From: Rufibacter glacialis
GTDB taxonomy: Bacteria > Bacteroidota > Bacteroidia > Cytophagales > Hymenobacteraceae
Assembly (NCBI RefSeq): GCF_008271745.1
Contig: NZ_VKKZ01000026.1
Location: forward strand, 124,001-188,000
Reading direction: 5' to 3'
Length of the DNA: 64,000 nucleotides
The notes below the pieces were generated by a model. That model was not told the origin of the DNA. It did no database searches and worked only from the letters and a program-made list of their open reading frames with translations. Positions within the stretch are counted from its first letter, which is position 1, and every line of letters starts with the position of its first letter. The position numbers and the translations under genes are program-made. Of this stretch, positions 28,981 to 51,187 are shown one piece after another.

Positions 28981-30396
28981 ATGGCAGGAATCACGAACAG
29001 CGCGAAGGCGCCGGCGGCGGCTGGGGTCACCTCCGGCGGCGGCAATTACCTGGGGCCGTTGATGACGGTGACCATGCTCTTCTTCATGTGGGGCTTCATC
29101 ACGTGCCTCAACGACATCCTCATCCCTAAGCTCCAGCAGGTCTTCACGCTGCAGAACTGGCAGGCGATGCTTATCCAGACGGCTTTCTTCGGGGCCTACT
29201 TCATCGTCTCGCTCCTCTATTTCCTGGTCTCGGTGACCAAAGGCGACCCCATCCTGCGCATCGGCTACCGCAACGGCATCATTGTGGGGCTAGTGGTGAC
29301 GGCCGTGGGCTGCCTGCTGTTCCTGCCGGCCGCCGACCTGCACTCCTACGGCCTGTTCCTGGGGGCGCTTTTCGTGCTTGCCTCGGGCATCACGGTGCTG
29401 CAGATCACGGCCAACCCCTACGTCTCCATCCTGGGTCCGCCCGAGTCCTCCTCCAGCCGCATGAACCTGACGCAGGCCCTCAACTCGCTGGGCACTACCA
29501 TTGCCCCGGTACTGGGCGGCTACCTCATCTTTGACCAGGTGAGCGGCGGCGATGCTACCGCTGAGTCAGTGAAGATGCCCTACGTGGGGCTGGCCGTGGC
29601 GCTCCTCGTCATTGCGGTGATCATCAAGGTGGCCCGTCTGCCGCGTCTCACCGGCGGGGACACTGCCATTGTGCCTGGCTCCGGCGCGCTGCGGCACCGG
29701 CACCTGGTGCTGGGCATCATCTGCATCTTCATGTACGTGGGCGGCGAGGTGGCCGTGGGCAGCATGCTCATCAACTACCTCAAGCTGCCCCAGATCGCGG
29801 GGCTGGACGAGTCGGAGGCCAAGCATTACTTGGCCTTTTACTGGGGCGGGGCCATGGTGGGCCGCTTCTTCGGGGCGGTGGCCCTGGCGCAGCTGCGCAG
29901 CATCTCCCTCAAATACGGGATCATGGCGGCCATCGCGTTGGTGACCTTCGGGGCGGTGTACGCCATTTATGACCTAAACCAGGCGCTCATCATCCTGGGG
30001 CTGATCGCGGCGAACTTCGTGGTGCTGCTGCTGGGCCGGTTCATTCCTAACCGCACGGTGGGGCTCTACGCGGCGGCGGTGATCGGGCTGCTGCTCATCG
30101 GGACCTTCGCCCAGGGCAGCGTGGCCATGTGGGCGGTGATCGCCATCGGGCTCTTCAACTCCATCATGTTCCCTACCATCTTTGACCTGGCCATCAAGGG
30201 GCTGGGCACGCACACAAGTCAGGGATCCTCACTGCTGGTGATGGCCATTGTGGGCGGGGCCATTGTGCCACCCCTGCAGGGAGCCTTAGCAGACGTGACC
30301 GGCGACGTGCAGCTTTCCTTTGTGGTGCCCTTGCTCTGTTACCTGTACATCGTTTACTATGGCTTCAGCGGTTATAAAACCCGGGCGGTAGCCTAA
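28981..30396 (+). CDS. Sugar MFS permease (GluP/FucP type)
   Basis: A 471-residue membrane protein with about twelve helices in the fucose/glucose/galactose permease branch of the MFS: LFFMWGFITCLNDILIPKLQ, QTAFFGAYFIVSLLYF, LQITANPYVSILGPPESSSSRMNLTQALNSLGTTIAPVLGG and FPTIFDLAIKGLG. It would import glucose or a related monosaccharide with protons, which fits the glucose released by the GH5/GH9/GH3 enzymes upstream. By eye its codons are richer in C and G at third positions than those of its neighbours (for example runs of CTC, ATC and GCG), which may mean high expression or a different origin. A strong terminator follows. Confidence 0.9.
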   Translation: MAGITNSAKAPAAAGVTSGGGNYLGPLMTVTMLFFMWGFITCLNDILIPKLQQVFTLQNWQAMLIQTAFFGAYFIVSLLYFLVSVTKGDPILRIGYRNGIIVGLVVTAVGCLLFLPAADLHSYGLFLGALFVLASGITVLQITANPYVSILGPPESSSSRMNLTQALNSLGTTIAPVLGGYLIFDQVSGGDATAESVKMPYVGLAVALLVIAVIIKVARLPRLTGGDTAIVPGSGALRHRHLVLGIICIFMYVGGEVAVGSMLINYLKLPQIAGLDESEAKHYLAFYWGGAMVGRFFGAVALAQLRSISLKYGIMAAIALVTFGAVYAIYDLNQALIILGLIAANFVVLLLGRFIPNRTVGLYAAAVIGLLLIGTFAQGSVAMWAVIAIGLFNSIMFPTIFDLAIKGLGTHTSQGSSLLVMAIVGGAIVPPLQGALADVTGDVQLSFVVPLLCYLYIVYYGFSGYKTRAVA

Positions 30397-42461: not shown

Positions 42462-42794
42462 TTAACAGCAGTTGTCCTGGCATTGGATAGGCGAGGCAAG
42501 GAGTCCCAGGAAAATCTCCCGCACCTCTTCCCATTTCTGGGCATCAATGCAATAGCAGACGCTAGTGCCTTCTACGGTGCCCCTAATTAAGCCCACCGCC
42601 TTCAGCTCTTTTAGGTGCTGTGACACGGTGGCCTGCGCCAGCGGAAGTTCACCCACCAGGTCGCCGCAGATGCAGGTCTGCTTCTTGAGCAAATACTGGA
42701 GAATCGCTACCCTGGCCGGGTGGGCCAAGGCTTTCGCGTAGGCGGCCATCTGGTTCTGCTCTGCGGTGAAGTTCTGCGTTTTGGTGACTCCCAT
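42462..42794 (-). CDS. arsR: ArsR-family arsenic-responsive repressor
   Basis: A 110-residue winged-helix repressor of the ArsR/SmtB family. The helix-turn-helix reads [21 protein letters not shown]. The metal-sensing cysteines are in [10 protein letters not shown] (C41 and C43), with additional cysteines at the C-terminus (CQDNCC, C105, C109 and C110) that could add arsenite ligands. It would repress the operon until arsenite or antimonite binds. It is the first gene of arsR-DUF6428-arsC-acr3; an operator-like dyad lies 19-34 bases upstream of its start, overlapping the likely promoter. Confidence 0.93.
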
Positions 42795-43119: not shown

Positions 43120-43174
43120 CCAAGAACCTCCCACCACCTAAAGTTCTTTGCTTGAGGTGGCGGGAGGTTCTTGG
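43120..43174 (-). terminator. Strong hairpin after the first beta-helix gene
   Basis: A 20-base stem (43120-43139 against 43155-43174, one mismatch; CCAAGAACCTCCC / GGGAGGTTCTTGG) with a 15-base loop, 20 bases beyond the stop of the 43194-44873 gene. Confidence 0.75.
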
Positions 43175-43191
43175 ATGTGTATTGTACAGGC

Positions 43192-43503
43192 TATTACTTG
43201 AGTTCATGCACGCCCGGCTCGGGGGCGGTGCCGCTGAGGCTGGGGTTGCCGTAGAAGTCCAGTGGGGGGCGCTTGATCTGGAAGAGGGCCTGCAGGTCCA
43301 GCCCCTTGTCTCGGAGGGGGGAGTTGGGCTGCAACCGGAAGCCAGCCAGGCTGTGGAGCTGGTAGGGGTCGGTGAGGGAGGTGGTGAGGGGGCCGGCCAG
43401 CATGGGGTCGGTGAACAGGCCCACCAGCCTGCCGTCCAGCTTCTCCTGGCCCGAGGCATTGGCCCATTCCTGCAGGCTGCGGTGGCCCCTGAAGGAGATG
43501 CCG
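43192..43503. repeat. Near-identical GC-rich 3-prime cassette, copy A
   Basis: About 310 bases that match 46491-46802 with four single-base differences by my count, none changing the protein. The match ends abruptly near the codons for GGxGISFRGH, beyond which the two genes are clearly diverged. GC content changes at the same boundary. Confidence 0.88.
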
Positions 43504-44873
43504 TAACCTCCAGGAATTTGCCAGTAGGTGTTGCCCAGGAATTTATCACTTGAGGATGTGCCGGATATCATTTCGCCTTGACCAATAAAGATGTTGTTAT
43601 AGAAGTTGAAATTTTGATTCGCAACAAACGATACAAATTGCAAAGCGCGAGCAACCCTATTAATTATTAAATTATTGTAAATGTGGCCATTAGAGAATTG
43701 CCTGCTGTCATTGCTGCCGTTCCAAAGGCTAAAACTACCATAATTAGGTAATCCGTCATCAATGCTGATAGAGTAGCGGACAGTGTTGTTAGCCCAATCC
43801 ATTGCTTCGCTCCACTGATAAAGACCGTAGCCAGCCCCCTGATTTTCATAGGAGAGACAGTATTGGATGATGGAATTGGTAACTCCTCCGTCTAATGCGA
43901 ATCCCCCTCCATCATGGCCGTTAGAAGTAGTTTTGTTTCGGTAGCTAATGGAGTGTTGGATGGTGATGCTGTCGCTGGAATGGGTCCAGATTCCGATTGG
44001 CCCATTTCCACCCCTAGGCATGTCCCAGCCGTTATTAGTGGCTACACAGCGGTCAATTAGGGCAACCTTGGTCATCTCTACCAAGATCCCGCTGCCGCTG
44101 TGGTTGTCGCCTACACTTGGATCACCTGGATTATTCTCAGCCACACAATCGCGCAGGGTAATGTTCCTGGATAAGTTCTTTTCATTATTTGGGAATGAAT
44201 ACCTGCCATTGCGCTGCTCGAAATCACCTGCTACGTGGATACCACTGAACCCGTTACTGCGGGCTACTACCCTGATGGCCTCTATATTATGGCAACTGTA
44301 GATTCGCAAGCCAGAGTGCTGGAAACCTTCTATTGTCACCTGCTCGACCGTGCCATTGGTTGCCCTGTTTAATTCAATGCCGTTAGCAGTGTTTCCCTCC
44401 TTTCGGCCCGCGCCCTTAGCGTTCAAATTAGCAATCCTGAAATAGTTGGACCTGACTACCGCTGCCTCCTTAGTGCCACCGTCAATGGTAGCTACTCCTG
44501 TGCCGAAACTAGTGATTGTGATGAGCTTTCCCTTGGATCCACTGTCTTCGGGGCCAAGGATGAGGGTGCCTGGAAAAACTGTGCCACCCTGCAAATACAC
44601 TGTCTCCCCTGGTTCCAAGTTTGCAGTGTTGAGCCGTTCCAAGGTACGCCACGGCTTCTCCTTGGTGCCGGGGTTGGTGTCATCTCCTTCTTTGCTAAGG
44701 TAGTATCCCACAGCGACAGTAGCCTGGGGTATTTGAGGTCCTGGCTCATCTTCTTTTTGAGAAGCATCATTGCAGGATACACCTATAAAAGATGAGTAGA
44801 TAATAATAATATATAGATTTAAAAAATTTCTTTTTGTATTTATTAAATTAAATATTAGAGATGAGTTTTGCAT
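43194..44873 (-). CDS. Right-handed beta-helix lipoprotein (paralog A)
   Basis: A 559-residue protein with a long N-terminal hydrophobic segment and lipobox (IYSSFIGVSC), followed by the DUF1565-like opening (YYLSKEGDD, GTKEKPWRTLERLN, GETVYLQGGTVFPGTLIL). A parallel beta-helix rich in Asn-flanked turns follows (about 80-440; GLRIYSCHNIEAIRV, GIWTHSSDSITIQH, RDCVAENNPGD). The helix fold is typical of polysaccharide lyases, epimerases and adhesins; no catalytic set is obvious. It is close to the gene at 46493-48205 over its whole length, and the last ~105 residues are identical between the two. The body of the gene is AT-rich while the 3-prime ~310 bases are GC-rich. Confidence 0.82.
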   Translation of the reverse strand: MQNSSLIFNLINTKRNFLNLYIIIIYSSFIGVSCNDASQKEDEPGPQIPQATVAVGYYLSKEGDDTNPGTKEKPWRTLERLNTANLEPGETVYLQGGTVFPGTLILGPEDSGSKGKLITITSFGTGVATIDGGTKEAAVVRSNYFRIANLNAKGAGRKEGNTANGIELNRATNGTVEQVTIEGFQHSGLRIYSCHNIEAIRVVARSNGFSGIHVAGDFEQRNGRYSFPNNEKNLSRNITLRDCVAENNPGDPSVGDNHSGSGILVEMTKVALIDRCVATNNGWDMPRGGNGPIGIWTHSSDSITIQHSISYRNKTTSNGHDGGGFALDGGVTNSIIQYCLSYENQGAGYGLYQWSEAMDWANNTVRYSISIDDGLPNYGSFSLWNGSNDSRQFSNGHIYNNLIINRVARALQFVSFVANQNFNFYNNIFIGQGEMISGTSSSDKFLGNTYWQIPGGYGISFRGHRSLQEWANASGQEKLDGRLVGLFTDPMLAGPLTTSLTDPYQLHSLAGFRLQPNSPLRDKGLDLQALFQIKRPPLDFYGNPSLSGTAPEPGVHELK

Positions 44874-46410
44874 AAAAATTTGTGAGGTTATTTATAAAGT
44901 TCAAAGTAATAATAAAAAAGTTAGATTTAAAATACGAAAATATTATGATGATGGTTTTAACTATAAAAAAACCAATATTGTTTCTTGCCCTAGTTTTTGC
45001 AAAGGTTGTAATGTTAAGAAGTGAAGTTTTCTTCCTACACTAGGTGGTGTTAACAATCGACGAATGATTTGTGCGTTATGTTTTATAAGGCAAGGGGAGG
45101 TTAAAGAACGTTGCAGTTTTATGGCTAAGTTTGGGTAAATGTGCCTGTGAGATGTTGCCAAGTATGCAATTGACATTTGACGCACAACCAAAGATAAGCC
45201 AATTCCTCAATGCCATGTTTTGGGTGGCATGAAGCGGCGTTGAGAATTTCCTAAATGTACAATCTCTAAGATTCAGATCTCTTCTGCTGGTCATTCAGAG
45301 TATCTGAACAGACTATAAACAGGCTGAGCTACTGCTTGCTGGTGACTTACTGTAGTAGTGGGTAATTAAATGCTATGGCAGCAGTACGGCTTGATGGCAC
45401 AGGTGTTCGCCTTTCCTAAGTTAGAAGGGACCACCTTATTATAAACTCCCTTTAAGTATAGGTATAAAATAAAGTGCTTCTCAACAGAGACAATCACTAC
45501 TGCCTTCTCTCCACCAACTATTATAAGGGGGCCGCCGCCTTCTATGCTATTCTAGTATCTCGCTACAACTATCATAATTCTCTGTATACCTGTTTAAATA
45601 TAATGATATTGTAGGATAATAGTGTGAGAATAAGATTGAATAGATTGTCCTTTGCTTGACCTGAAATAGATGAGGCTGCAAATAGATGAGGCTGCAAATA
45701 GATGAGGCTGCAAGTGAAGTTAAAATTTACGAAGCATTATTATCTATTCTACCACCTTAAGTTGGGTTCACCATAGCATTGCTCAAACACCCTTAGTAAG
45801 CTTTTGGGCCTCCTCAGGACTGAACAATGAGTTGCACCGTCTGCAATAACGGCTGGAAGCATTTAGGGTAGAAGGCGAACAGGTAGTACCTTCAACAAAT
45901 AGTGAGTTCCACTCCAACAGTCCATAGGATTGCTGATGAACTGCCTAATATTGATAAATACTAATATAACTTTGCACCTAGTTTTATACTATGTGGACTT
46001 GAGGACGTAAAAAGGTTTTGATACTTTATGGAACCTTAGATTCCATAAGCATAGAAGGCGTGTGCTCGGAGGAGATAGCAGCCAATAGCACCTTAACCAG
46101 GCGCGGCAGAGGTCAGGACAATCAAAAGGGTTACACAAGAAATTGTCCAAAATACCTTGGTTTAGGCTGCATGCCATAACCCAACCGGTCAATTTACTGC
46201 TTTTCTAATTTTTTAAAGGCCTTGAATAGGAGCATCTACTGGCCCTTGCAGTTGTCTTCACCCGACAAATAGCTTTGATAAAGAAACTTCAACCAAATAA
46301 GAAGCAATCTTGTAGAGTGAGTTTGAGATAAAATTAAGCATTAGATAGCTTAGCCATTTTTTAGTAGAACTTGGGGTTAGGCAATTTATGCATACTAAGG
46401 CAGGCGGTAA
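44874..46410. other. AT-rich gene-free stretch
   Basis: About 1.5 kb between the two beta-helix paralogs with no coding signal I can defend; the open frames are short and lack family features. It includes a triple 16-bp direct repeat at 45665-45712. It may hold decayed gene remnants or the promoter region of paralog A. Confidence 0.5.
45665..45712. repeat. Three tandem copies of a 16-bp unit
   Basis: AATAGATGAGGCTGCA repeated three times without a mismatch or spacer. It is a short minisatellite in non-coding sequence, potentially variable between strains. Confidence 0.9.
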
Positions 46411-46455
46411 ATGCAAGCCAGGGGACTATAAGGCTTTCGTCCTCCTGGCTTGCAT
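46411..46455 (-). terminator. Hairpin after the second beta-helix gene
   Basis: ATGCAAGCCAGG (46411-46422) pairs perfectly with CCTGGCTTGCAT (46444-46455), 37 bases beyond the stop of the 46493-48205 gene. There is no clear T run, but the position fits a terminator. Confidence 0.6.
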
Positions 46456-46490
46456 CTTGAATTCAAAGAATGCCCTATAGGTTATTTTCT

Positions 46491-46802
46491 GATTACTTGA
46501 GTTCATGCACGCCCGGCTCGGGGGCGGTGCCGCTGAGGCTGGGGTTGCCGTAGAAGTCCAGTGGGGGGCGCTTGATCTGGAAGAGGGCCTGCAGGTCCAG
46601 CCCCTTGTCCCGGAGGGGGGAGTTGGGCTGCAACCGGAAGCCGGCCAGGCTGTGGAGCTGGTAGGGGTCGGTGAGGGAGGTGGTGAGGGGGCCGGCCAGC
46701 ATGGGGTCGGTGAACAGGCCCACCAGCCTACCGTCCAGCTTCTCCTGGCCCGAGGCGTTGGCCCATTCCTGCAGGCTGCGGTGGCCCCTGAAGGAGATGC
46801 CG
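46491..46802. repeat. Near-identical GC-rich 3-prime cassette, copy B
   Basis: Partner of the segment at 43192-43503, same orientation, offset 3299 bases. All four differences are silent. It encodes the C-terminal domain of paralog B. Confidence 0.88.
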
Positions 46803-48205
46803 TTGCCCCCGGGTACTTGCCAGTAGGTGTTGCCTAGGAACTTCTCTCCTGAGGAAGGGCCATCCACTATCAGGCCTTGGCCGATAAAGATGTTGTTGTA
46901 AAAGGTGAAACCTTTGTTGTTGCTGTCGCCAAAGAACTTTACGCCTGATGATCTTTTGCTGATAACCACATTATTATAGGCGAAAGCATTAGAGAACTGC
47001 TTGCTGTCATTGCTGCCATTCCAAATGGTAAAACCTCCATATTGGCCTTTCCCATCATCAAGGGAGATGGAATAACGGATTATGTTATTATCCCAATCTC
47101 CAGCTCCATCCCATTGGAAGAGGCCAAATCCAGCTCCATCGTTTTCGTAAGACAGGCAGTACTGAATTATAGAATTGGTCACGCCGCCATCGAGATCAAA
47201 CCCGCCTCCATCTAATCCTCCGGCAGAGGTTTTGTTGCGGTAGCTGATGCAATGTTGGATGATGACACTGTCACTGGAGGCCACCCAAATGCCTACAGGG
47301 CCATTCCCAGTACGAGGCATGTCCCAACCGTTATTCGTAGCCGTGCAATGCTCTACGAGGGCTCCTTTGGTAAGCTCGATTAGAATGCCATTTCCACTAT
47401 GGTTATCAAGAATAGTCGGATCTCCTGGGTTGTCTTCGGCAAGGCAATTTTTGAGGGTGATGTTGCGGGAGTGGTGGTCGCTATTTTCTGAGAGGAGGTA
47501 TTTCCCATTTTGTTCAAGGAATTCACCAGTAACATAAATGCCGCAAAAGCCATTGCCTTTGGCAGTTACCTTTATGACCTCAATGTTGTGACAACTATAG
47601 ATTTTTAAACCTGAGTGCTGAAATCCTTCCGTAGTTACTTGTTCAACAACACCATGGTGGGCCCTCGTTAATTCAATTCCGTTCGTTGTGTTTCCTGTTT
47701 TCCTTCCGGCTCCCTTGGCGTTGATGGCCTTCAAATGAAAGTAATTGCTTTTGATGATAACGGCTTCTTTATGTCCGCTATTTATGGTAGCTATCCCAAG
47801 GCCATAACTTGTAATTACCACGGGCTTTCCTTTAGCCCCATTGTCTAGGGAGTCAAGCAAGAGGGTTCCAGAAAATGTACTGCCCCCTTCCAAGTAAACT
47901 ATTTCACCAGGCTCTAAGTCCACTGAGTTCACTCTTGCCAAGGTGCGCCAAGGTTTTTCCTTAGTGCCAGGGTTGGCATCATCACCATCTTTGCTGAGGT
48001 AGTAACTATTACTAATGGCGGTCTCTGGTATTATAGGTTCAGGGTCTTCTGTGCCTGAAAAGAAAGGGTCAGAGCAGGAAAGGAAAAGGGTAGAAGAAAG
48101 AAAAAGCACTAAATGAAGGTGTTTTCTTAGTGTCTTCAAGAAATTAGGAGAATGGTAGAAGTTGGCCATGTAGTGCAACGTAAAGTTATTTAAACAAAAG
48201 GGCAT
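46493..48205 (-). CDS. Right-handed beta-helix lipoprotein (paralog B)
   Basis: A 570-residue paralog of the 43194-44873 product. It has a lipobox (VLFLSSTLFLSC), then YYLSKDGDDANPGTKEKPWR and a parallel beta-helix with the same register (GLKIYSCHNIEVIKV, GIWVASSDSVIIQHCISYRN, GAGFGLFQWDGAGDWDN). An in-frame ATG at 48169 is an equally good start. The C-terminal ~105 residues (from GISFRGHRSLQEWANASG to PEPGVHELK) are identical to paralog A, although the preceding parts differ at roughly a quarter of positions or more. Function unknown; a cell-surface polysaccharide-binding or -modifying role is plausible from the fold. It is isolated in AT-rich sequence. Confidence 0.82.
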   Translation of the reverse strand: MPFCLNNFTLHYMANFYHSPNFLKTLRKHLHLVLFLSSTLFLSCSDPFFSGTEDPEPIIPETAISNSYYLSKDGDDANPGTKEKPWRTLARVNSVDLEPGEIVYLEGGSTFSGTLLLDSLDNGAKGKPVVITSYGLGIATINSGHKEAVIIKSNYFHLKAINAKGAGRKTGNTTNGIELTRAHHGVVEQVTTEGFQHSGLKIYSCHNIEVIKVTAKGNGFCGIYVTGEFLEQNGKYLLSENSDHHSRNITLKNCLAEDNPGDPTILDNHSGNGILIELTKGALVEHCTATNNGWDMPRTGNGPVGIWVASSDSVIIQHCISYRNKTSAGGLDGGGFDLDGGVTNSIIQYCLSYENDGAGFGLFQWDGAGDWDNNIIRYSISLDDGKGQYGGFTIWNGSNDSKQFSNAFAYNNVVISKRSSGVKFFGDSNNKGFTFYNNIFIGQGLIVDGPSSGEKFLGNTYWQVPGGNGISFRGHRSLQEWANASGQEKLDGRLVGLFTDPMLAGPLTTSLTDPYQLHSLAGFRLQPNSPLRDKGLDLQALFQIKRPPLDFYGNPSLSGTAPEPGVHELK

Positions 48206-50318: not shown

Positions 50319-51023
50319 TTACAGAAATTCCTTTAGCTGACTAAGGCAATGCACTTCATAGGTGGGGCGCAGGCGTGGTCGCTTCTTCTCTGGGTTAAAG
50401 AAAACCTGGTCAATGCCGGCATTCATAGCCCCCAGAATATCCGCTTCCAGGCTGTCTCCGATCATGAGGCTTTCTTTGGCGGTAACTCCGGCCCGCTCCA
50501 ATGCATGCTGAAAGATCCGCTTGTCTGGCTTGGTGCAGTTGATGCACTCTGAGGTGATGATCTCAGAGAAGTACGTATCCAAGTTAGCTGATTTAAGCTT
50601 GATGTACTGCACGTCTTTGAACCCGTTGGTGATGATGTGCAGCACATACTTTTCCTGAAGGTAACCCAGGACCTCGTGGGTAAAAGGGAAAACGGCCGTT
50701 TTGGTAGGGCAGATATCGGTGAAGGCCTGGCTAATGCCCACAGGAATATCTGAAGCGTCCATGCCCAGGCCCGTGAGACACTTGATAAACCGGTTCTCGC
50801 GCAGTTGCTGCTGCGTGATTTTCCCTTTATGGTAAAGGTCCCACATGCGTTGGTTCACAAAGCTGTACTTCCGGTAAAAGGAGTCACGGGAGAAGTTGCC
50901 TAGCTCCTCCAGCTTGAAATGGTCATACAGGTGGTAAAGCGTCTCTTCAGAGTTCTTCTCAAAGTCCCAGAGCGTGTGGTCCAGGTCAAAGAACAGGTGA
51001 CGGTAAGTTTTTGAAGTTCTCAT
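50319..51023 (-). CDS. YjjG-type HAD nucleotidase
   Basis: About 234 residues from the ATG at 51023 (MRTSKTYRHLFFDLDHTLWD). It is a haloacid dehalogenase-fold phosphatase: motif I is FFDLDHTLWDF (nucleophile D13, acid/base D15), motif II is the ITNG of HIITNGFKD, motif III the Lys of CTKPDKRIF and motif IV LMIGDSLEADILGA. Length, the helical cap after motif I, and NQVFFNPEKK-like ending agree with the YjjG family, which dephosphorylates pyrimidine nucleoside monophosphates including unusual ones, acting as a house-cleaning enzyme. It lies just upstream of tmRNA on the same strand; no operon partner is evident. Confidence 0.88.
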   Translation of the reverse strand: MRTSKTYRHLFFDLDHTLWDFEKNSEETLYHLYDHFKLEELGNFSRDSFYRKYSFVNQRMWDLYHKGKITQQQLRENRFIKCLTGLGMDASDIPVGISQAFTDICPTKTAVFPFTHEVLGYLQEKYVLHIITNGFKDVQYIKLKSANLDTYFSEIITSECINCTKPDKRIFQHALERAGVTAKESLMIGDSLEADILGAMNAGIDQVFFNPEKKRPRLRPTYEVHCLSQLKEFL

Positions 51024-51187
51024 AAAAAGCTGCGTTCCTTCTGGTAAGGCTACCAAAAAGCAAAGGTGTTATTTTAAAACCAATACGGCGGCTTTTAGTT
51101 TCAGGAAAGTAGAGAAGGTCATCCTGGATGACCGATTATCCGGTGAAATTCTGAAAACAAGGCCTAAGCTACCTTGGCATTACTGTC

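Follow-up and report, generated by a model that had tools for sequence, protein, structure and literature searches.

A possible case of GC-biased gene conversion: near-identical, GC-rich tracts at opposite ends of a tandem beta-helix gene pair in Rufibacter species

Why should two neighbouring genes of Rufibacter glacialis that are well diverged over most of their length end in an almost identical and GC-rich stretch? The genes, here called a and b, are 68% identical and lie in a 64,000-nucleotide stretch of DNA that was analysed as a whole (the window; Table). When they were compared without gaps and counted backwards from the final stop-codon base, their ends differed at only 4 of 311 positions (43311, 43344, 43431 and 43458 in gene a), and all four differences were silent and at third positions, which confirms what a preliminary description of the locus had reported for the last ~310 bases. 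Mismatches resume at 312, 313, 316 and onward, identity is about 65% upstream of the tract (0.90 in the 20-codon window that straddles the boundary), and 3' of the stop codons similarity between the two genes is absent. A repeat search found the same pair as 43193-43492 and 46492-46791 (300 nt, 99%). The top identity segment of the pair covers 345 sites with 11 mismatches, and its score of 294.6 was reached in none of 2000 codon shuffles, the shuffled maximum being 80.4. The G+C content of third codon positions (GC3) is 0.91 and 0.95 in the last 105 codons of genes a and b, respectively, compared to 0.50 and 0.48 before them, so the boundary is as sharp in both identity and GC as had been described. 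The upstream parts are indeed diverged; their description as AT-rich, however, holds only in relation to the genome, as the mean GC3 of the sampled R. glacialis genes is 0.67, with the upstream parts below this mean and the tract well above it.

Table. Positions in the window of the gene pair, its tracts and its syntenic markers in R. glacialis
Feature	Positions	Strand	Evidence and remarks
Gene a, predicted right-handed beta-helix lipoprotein, 559 aa	43194..44873	-	ORF; PF13229, Pfam 6.6e-14
Gene b, tandem paralogue of gene a, 570 aa	46493..48205	-	ORF; Pfam 1.8e-11
Homogenised GC-rich tract of gene a, the stop codon with roughly 102 codons before it	43194..43504	-	GC3 0.92
Homogenised GC-rich tract of gene b	46493..46803	-	GC3 0.95; 4 silent differences from the gene a tract
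Diverged part of gene a	43505..44723 (upper limit approximate, about codon 50)	-	Nucleotide identity to gene b 0.40-0.72 in 20-codon windows; GC3 about 0.5
Diverged part of gene b	46804..48055 (upper limit approximate)	-	Identity profile against gene a
ArsR-like regulator (named from sequence)	42462..42794	-	Left syntenic marker of the pair; present also in R. tibetensis
HAD-type hydrolase (named from sequence)	50319..51056	-	Right syntenic marker of the pair; present also in R. tibetensis

The structure model of gene a (pLDDT 89.7) is a right-handed beta-helix of the LnbX type, in which the tract makes up the C-terminal cap after the helix. We take the product to be a lipoprotein from the Cys that follows a hydrophobic signal, read by the usual rules. 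The best structural matches were the GH136-like 7v6i, 5gqc, 7v6m, 6kqs and 6kqt, and the top likeness suggested by the model is thus to GH136 lacto-N-biosidase (LnbX, ErLnb136), although the identity is 17-18%, the Foldseek TM-scores are 0.40-0.66 and gene a encodes a predicted lipoprotein. Two invariant Asp residues seven apart (D321 and D328) align with Asp in two solved chains, though the stretches concerned have low scores (14.6 and 4.4 bits). Their spacing fits that of the acid/base D568 and the nucleophile D575 given for ErLnb136 in the cited part of PMC7335108, which makes them a candidate catalytic pair.

The same gene pair in related species gives the tract its context. In R. tibetensis the syntenic pair is homogenised at the other (N) end, where a segment of 524 sites has 1 mismatch and a score reached in none of 2000 codon shuffles; homogenisation extends over the 5' half and over a central patch. 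In R. radiotolerans the pair has no significant homogenised segment, its best segment being reached by 138 of 2000 shuffles. The positions of the mosaics are thus specific to the species, and GC3 was observed to match them. In the C region it is 0.92/0.95 in R. glacialis, 0.56/0.49 in R. tibetensis and 0.51/0.53 in R. radiotolerans, and in the N region 0.57/0.43, 0.91/0.91 and 0.43/0.45, respectively (four Fisher tests of the between-species contrasts, p = 1.2e-9 to 1.5e-18). Windows of R. tibetensis that are partly homogenised (identity 0.91-0.98) have a GC3 of 0.77-0.90. Because the GC-rich end differs between R. glacialis and R. tibetensis and is absent in R. radiotolerans, GC3 tracks the homogenised tract and not the domain. 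The gene conversion that had been proposed for the R. glacialis pair is well supported by these data, as the tract is homogenised in this species and diverged in the other two (identity between the copies at the C-end 0.56-0.75 in R. tibetensis and 0.54-0.66 in R. radiotolerans). The trees agree: genes a and b form one group (support 100) in the tree of the C tract, where the paralogues resemble each other more than orthologues do, and fall apart in the trees of the N and middle parts. Each of the three genomes holding the gene has two paralogues, and with the copy number constant the pattern is not one of unequal crossing-over.

Among the loci of 80 relatives, 3 had two family members, matching gene a at 25-43% identity, and a class-wide search of 395 genomes (E 1e-70) found the family in 16, with two matches in 2, namely R. 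glacialis and one genome whose two matches lie far apart. R. soli P0004 and the sequence P0005 have near-identity confined to the C region and may be a further homogenised case.

Third positions in the tracts are increased in both G and C, and codon positions 1 and 2 have only a weak GC shift; the fraction of Gly, Ala, Arg and Pro is 0.327 in the R. glacialis tract compared to 0.231-0.288 in seven relatives. The pooled GC3 of three ribosomal-operon stretches is 0.42, 0.36 and 0.41. Ribosomal genes were thus observed to use mostly AT-ending codons and codon optimisation therefore pulls against the GC gain of the tract; translational selection as the cause of the high GC3 is ruled out by these values (0.36-0.42). 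Where A or T stands in the third position of both unconverted proxies, the tracts have G or C at 19/21, 23/27, 38/41 and 42/47 positions, which needs either many rounds of conversion or a GC-rich donor. A single heteroduplex with a one-step choice of the GC parent is ruled out by the same sites.

Paralogues were also compared more widely in this respect. Windows at least 93% identical were found in 3 of 36 sampled paralogue pairs, and in these GC3 was 0.96, 0.89 and 0.76 in the identical windows compared to 0.48, 0.48 and 0.61 in the diverged ones. A tandem pair of R. glacialis with no homogenised window has a mild correlation of identity and GC3 (Spearman 0.45), and shared composition therefore gives part of such window correlations. 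Two families, UXS and Ino1-like (both named from sequence), were followed further. For UXS, GC3 is 0.30-0.49 in 7 of the 10 genomes with a single copy, while the richer copy has 0.83-0.94 in all 6 genomes with two copies; RecA has 0.52-0.70 in all 16 genomes, which were all included in a RecA tree; the UXS comparison is phylogenetically non-independent. The exceptions are three single-copy genomes with a GC3 of 0.82-0.85, R. glacialis among them, and a second UXS copy expected in R. tibetensis was not found there, the genome having one copy only. In G001, G003 and G006 one UXS copy is GC-rich throughout without being homogenised with the other copy. The G004 pair still has a GC3 of 0.80-0.85 at its diverged 3' end (identity 0.83), and in G003 and G006 the final windows of the poorer copies have 0.85 at an identity of 0.79 and 0.73. 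Among 276 Ino1-like windows, which include two gene pieces of G011 starting at contig ends, GC3 is 0.90 at an identity of at least 0.97 (21 windows), 0.82 at 0.85-0.97 (113) and 0.70 below 0.85 (142). The choice of UXS rested on high GC3 and that of Ino1 on local identity, so only the Ino1 test is unbiased as to GC. With exceptions and few independent events, the two families point the same way, in the direction of a GC bias.

The best reading of these data, and in our view a probable one, is ectopic gene conversion that recurs and favours G and C. Genes a and b would be old tandem paralogues that encode a predicted surface carbohydrate-active beta-helix protein, and one copy would repeatedly overwrite parts of the other, presumably through RecA-type recombination between the copies. 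The surviving tract would be the 3' end, i.e. the C-terminal cap, in R. glacialis and the 5' half together with the middle patch in R. tibetensis. If mismatches in the recombination intermediate were resolved on balance to G or C, many rounds would let the GC3 of the tract drift to about 0.92 while the unconverted parts remain near 0.5; both the recurrence of conversion and biased repair as the cause of the GC gain are thus parts of the mechanism that we infer. The wider claim, that conversion between Rufibacter paralogues is strongly GC-biased, that its continuation drives third positions to about 92% G+C against mutation and codon optimisation, and that homogenised tracts within genes may thus serve as a record of biased repair, is in our judgement evenly poised between right and wrong.

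A GC-rich donor, the foremost alternative, could produce a similar tract if the segment was imported horizontally from a GC-rich relative and then copied to the second gene by unbiased conversion. This would fit third positions having been replaced almost completely in a single step, and within G003 and G006 the GC-rich UXS copy seems to be the donor to the AT-richer copy. We nevertheless find such an import unlikely. With the C tract alone as a query (at word-based sensitivity) the best match was 71% in R. soli, with nothing closer than Rufibacter, and the N tract alone, at the same sensitivity, had its best matches at 72% in R. soli and in the R. glacialis gene. The N tract tree puts Rufibacter in one group (SH-aLRT 95), and the C tract lies near Rufibacter sequences, though an outside sequence, P0010, is placed within them and the resolution of this tree is weak. 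An import would also have had to happen twice, independently and at opposite ends of the gene, and to be followed each time by copying to the paralogue. It is improbable, too, that GC-rich stretches recombine more readily and that GC enrichment by some other cause therefore came first and conversion second. The same segments have a GC3 of 0.43-0.57 in unconverted pairs and there is therefore no sign of an ancestral GC-rich segment; moreover, this order of events leaves the cause of the GC gain unexplained, and translational selection favours AT-ending codons. On the other hand, GC3-high stretches without a present paralogue do occur, as in a single-copy R. glacialis gene (C10:314882-315820) that has windows up to 0.94 and is matched in 1 further genome among 16 of the genus, and some GC-rich UXS copies are not now homogenised.

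The preliminary description also proposed a modular exchange, in which a constant C-terminal domain is combined with varying beta-helices and surface proteins are diversified. In the structure model the C-terminal cap is where the tract lies, and the middle coils are in part (alignment columns 390-450) diverged in all three pairs, as such an exchange would have it. We consider it very improbable, since the segment and the gene are each found in two copies only in the genome: DNA and protein searches of the R. glacialis genome gave no further copies of the tract and no silent cassettes, and plasmids gave no match to the tract. The segment is also native to the aligned relatives: of the 12 sequences in the first alignment with gene a, 11 have it and the twelfth ends inside the tract. 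The part that the two copies share in R. tibetensis is the N-terminal half, which leaves no constant cassette. In this pair conversion increases the likeness of the paralogues instead of diversifying them. Purifying or codon-level selection alone, keeping the ends alike without conversion, is barely conceivable. The four differences in the tract are all silent, which speaks for it, but the identity profiles of the relatives differ from that of R. glacialis; the same segment has diverged between the copies of R. tibetensis and R. radiotolerans and purifying selection therefore fails to explain the tract, while ribosomal genes prefer AT-ending codons. An assembly artefact fusing two repeats has an equally negligible chance. 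A sequence of the cluster P0009 (longest contig 40155 bases compared to 210677 for that of the window) matches gene b and stops inside the tract, as though a contig had been broken at the repeat. There are, however, four differences between the two tracts, which lie in different unique contexts, and a 5.17-Mb contig of R. tibetensis has a similar pattern at the other end.

GC-biased conversion is an accepted process in mammals and a matter of dispute in bacteria. Santoyo and Romero reportedly treated ectopic conversion between paralogues of bacteria in 2005. The question of bias bears on why bacterial genomes exceed the GC content predicted from mutation, as they generally do according to the cited part of PMC4450053. 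There, Lassalle et al. (2015) link bacterial recombination positively to GC content and note that a GC bias could oppose AU-ending optimal codons; their comparison is of gene GC with evidence of intragenic recombination, whereas ours sets the segments of one pair against each other and also compares species. In Caulobacter, more than 100 recombination events had no such GC bias in the portion of PMC8153448 considered here. Conversion within one genome is described for Mycobacterium tuberculosis paralogues (PMC13061034), where GC was, in the part cited, not statistically associated with conversion frequency between pairs, while in Rufibacter GC tracks the tract within genes. Our literature search found no comparable within-gene contrast, the published tests that it found being comparisons of genes or genomes. 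In Rufibacter the gene pair is its own control, as each species converted a different part and GC follows the converted part, and the opposite-end pattern looks like a natural test of G/C-favouring gene copying in bacteria. If the link holds genome-wide in the genus, it would provide a quantitative natural test and named loci for experiment.

The closest parallels are the mammalian paralogue pairs BMP8A/B, DDX19A/B and TUBG1/2, for which GC-biased gene conversion is described in PMC2720389, where mammalian histones are cited as a further case. As far as the cited sections of that study go, these pairs resemble ours in having concerted and divergent regions within one gene, with the concerted part higher in GC, and in a copy number constant at two; for Bmp8a/b the third-position difference in GC was not significant. 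In contrast to these mammalian pairs, Rufibacter has no meiosis, its GC3 contrast is about 0.92 to 0.5, and conversion has affected opposite ends of the same gene in different species, which provides an internal control.

The tandem paralogues a and b share near-identical 3' ends. Counted backwards from the stop codon, 4 of 311 bases differ, all four silently; divergence sets in immediately upstream of this tract, and no similarity is found downstream of the stop codon. None of 2000 codon shuffles reached the best identity segment of the pair. GC at third codon positions (GC3) is 0.91 and 0.95 in the last 105 codons of a and b and 0.50 and 0.48 in the preceding part. The near-identical ends with four silent differences, the sharp boundary and the GC jump in the preliminary description are thus confirmed, and we have little doubt that gene conversion has taken place between the two genes. 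The cassette exchange diversifying surface proteins that was also proposed there is not supported, as a search of the R. glacialis genome for further cassette copies returned none past the two (tract segment two copies, gene two copies). The inverted repeat after gene a is probably its terminator; no counterpart 3' of gene b is among the repeats listed. The GC-rich tracts are overlapped by long antisense ORFs, probably a by-product of the GC-rich third positions.

Features discussed (positions in the window unless a locus is named)
Feature	Position	Strand	Basis
Gene a, right-handed beta-helix protein, 559 aa	43194-44873	minus	ORF and Pfam PF13229
Gene b, right-handed beta-helix protein, 570 aa, tandem to a	46493-48205	minus	ORF and Pfam PF13229
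Inverted repeat, 24 nt, 92% complementary, directly after gene a	43120-43174
Antisense ORFs, window	43152-43553; 46505-46837
Antisense ORFs, locus L099	8564-9049; 10485-11045
MFS-type gene (fucose-permease-like, from sequence)	28981-30396
Single-copy lipoprotein-like gene, R. glacialis contig C10	L135:14879-15820

Among 16 Rufibacter genomes searched (cut-off E 1e-80), the gene was found in three, with two copies each: R. glacialis, R. tibetensis and R. radiotolerans. The last two were identified through proteins bearing these species names, whose sequences recur in the DNA of the two genomes with full agreement except at the first residue. The R. tibetensis pair is syntenic with ours, between ArsR-like and HAD-type genes, and in the N-terminal half its copies match at 523 of 524 sites; they are almost identical in a central patch and have diverged at the C-end. 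GC3 there is 0.91 in both N regions and 0.49-0.56 at the C-end, the reverse of R. glacialis (N region 0.57/0.43, C region 0.92/0.95). The R. radiotolerans pair lies elsewhere, with glycosyltransferase-like neighbours and copies 8 kb apart start to start; it has no significant homogenised segment (the best was reached by 138 of 2000 shuffles) and a GC3 of 0.43-0.53 at both ends. High GC3 therefore goes with homogenisation, not with a particular domain.

Paralogue pairs, defined by amino-acid identity of 45% or more across no less than 60% of the longer protein, were also scanned in samples of about 0.9, 1.24 and 0.44 Mb taken from these three genomes. Three of the 36 pairs had windows with nucleotide identity of 93% or more, and each time those windows were higher in GC3. 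Genus-wide, the third such pair, an inositol-phosphate-synthase-like family named from sequence, gave mean GC3 of 0.90 at identity of at least 0.97 (21 of 276 windows), 0.82 at 0.85-0.97 (n=113) and 0.70 below 0.85 (n=142). The UDP-glucuronate-decarboxylase-like (UXS) family, likewise so named, was entered from one GC3-high R. tibetensis gene and thus picked for its GC3; neither family's comparisons are independent of ancestry. Six of the 16 genomes carry two UXS copies, the higher at GC3 0.83-0.94; of the ten single-copy genomes, seven have 0.30-0.49 and R. glacialis, R. tibetensis and G013 have 0.82-0.85. For RecA, all 16 genomes have GC3 of 0.52-0.70, so host background does not explain this split. 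In the RecA tree G013 and R. tibetensis fall inside the two-copy group (support 85/93), which includes the single-copy, poor R. radiotolerans; a lost second copy in G013 and R. tibetensis would fit. The poorer copies of genomes G003 and G006 reach 0.95-0.97 where they most resemble the rich copy (identity 0.89-0.95); elsewhere they are mixed, with 0.85 in the last windows. Among the UXS-like genes of the 16 genomes (loci L286-L307), homogenisation in the two-copy genomes is whole-gene or patchy, and 40-codon windows there reach GC3 values as high as 0.97-1.00.

Stretches with GC3 of at least 0.90 are rare in R. glacialis, not unique. This value was reached in 20 of 6851 windows of 104 codons, spread over six genes, and in 9 of 9468 in the R. 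tibetensis samples, all in this pair and one other gene. The R. glacialis tract is absent from the 20 because the nearest grid windows (0.88, 0.89) begin before it; the last 104 codons of a and b have 0.92 and 0.95. Several such windows lie in the MFS-type gene. The lipoprotein-like gene reaches 0.94; no paralogue was found in R. glacialis, and one other of the 16 genomes has matches.

On balance, we favour GC bias of the a/b conversion as the cause of the GC-rich tract. Pooled over ribosomal-operon stretches, GC3 is 0.42, 0.36 and 0.41 in the three genomes, below the gene means of 0.67, 0.56 and 0.63; the optimum is therefore taken as AT-ending, tracts at 0.92 run counter to it, and codon selection is rejected as the cause. 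A GC-rich parent of one single event is also rejected, since third positions with A/T in both unconverted proxies have G/C in the tract at 19/21 and 23/27 (R. glacialis) and 38/41 and 42/47 (R. tibetensis). The tracts sit at another equilibrium, and to reach it takes either biased conversion repeated over many rounds or a donor rich in GC.

Many rounds of GC-biased conversion between the paralogues would bring tract GC3 to such an equilibrium. The alternative, a GC-rich donor as the source, is in line with the UXS pattern, where an already rich copy appears as donor, a pattern that also counts against biased conversion. However, tract-only searches of 5.8 billion proteins (relatives sharing short words) gave nothing nearer than Rufibacter, at 71-72% identity at most, and in segment trees the tracts stay near Rufibacter sequences, the C-tract tree being weakly resolved and admitting one outside sequence. 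Biased conversion has further points against it: first and second codon positions shift weakly, a mild identity-GC3 correlation occurs also in a tandem R. glacialis pair lacking homogenised windows, a GC3-high R. glacialis gene has no paralogue in that genome, three single-copy UXS genomes are GC-rich, and in G001, G003 and G006 the GC-rich UXS copy is not at present homogenised with its partner.

The predicted structure of the gene a product (mean pLDDT 89.7, from 42 sequences) is a beta-helix to about residue 461 and then a cap, to which the tract essentially corresponds. The C-terminal part is present in 11 of the 12 sequences first aligned with gene a; the remaining one, P0009, matches gene b and ends inside the tract. 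Two a-type proteins, P0004 (R. soli) and P0005, share 96-100% identity across the final four windows of 25 columns and 64-88% elsewhere, which may reflect further conversion or exchange. The six nearest solved chains to the model are GH136 lacto-N-biosidases, and two invariant Asp, seven apart, align with Asp in two solved GH136 chains, in low-scoring stretches. In ErLnb136 the two catalytic residues, D568 and D575, are likewise seven apart (PMC7335108). The products are predicted surface carbohydrate-active lipoproteins.

In bacteria, biased conversion was proposed from a correlation of GC content with recombination among genes (PMC4450053) and has been disputed (PMC8153448, citing Caulobacter, with no bias in >100 events); a 2026 preprint on M. 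tuberculosis paralogues detects no link between GC content and the frequency of conversion between pairs (PMC13061034). A within-gene bacterial case of a GC-rich converted tract was not found in the literature searched, whose coverage mostly excludes subscription papers. The signature of the a/b pair is shared with mammalian gene pairs, where it serves as supporting evidence for conversion (PMC2720389).
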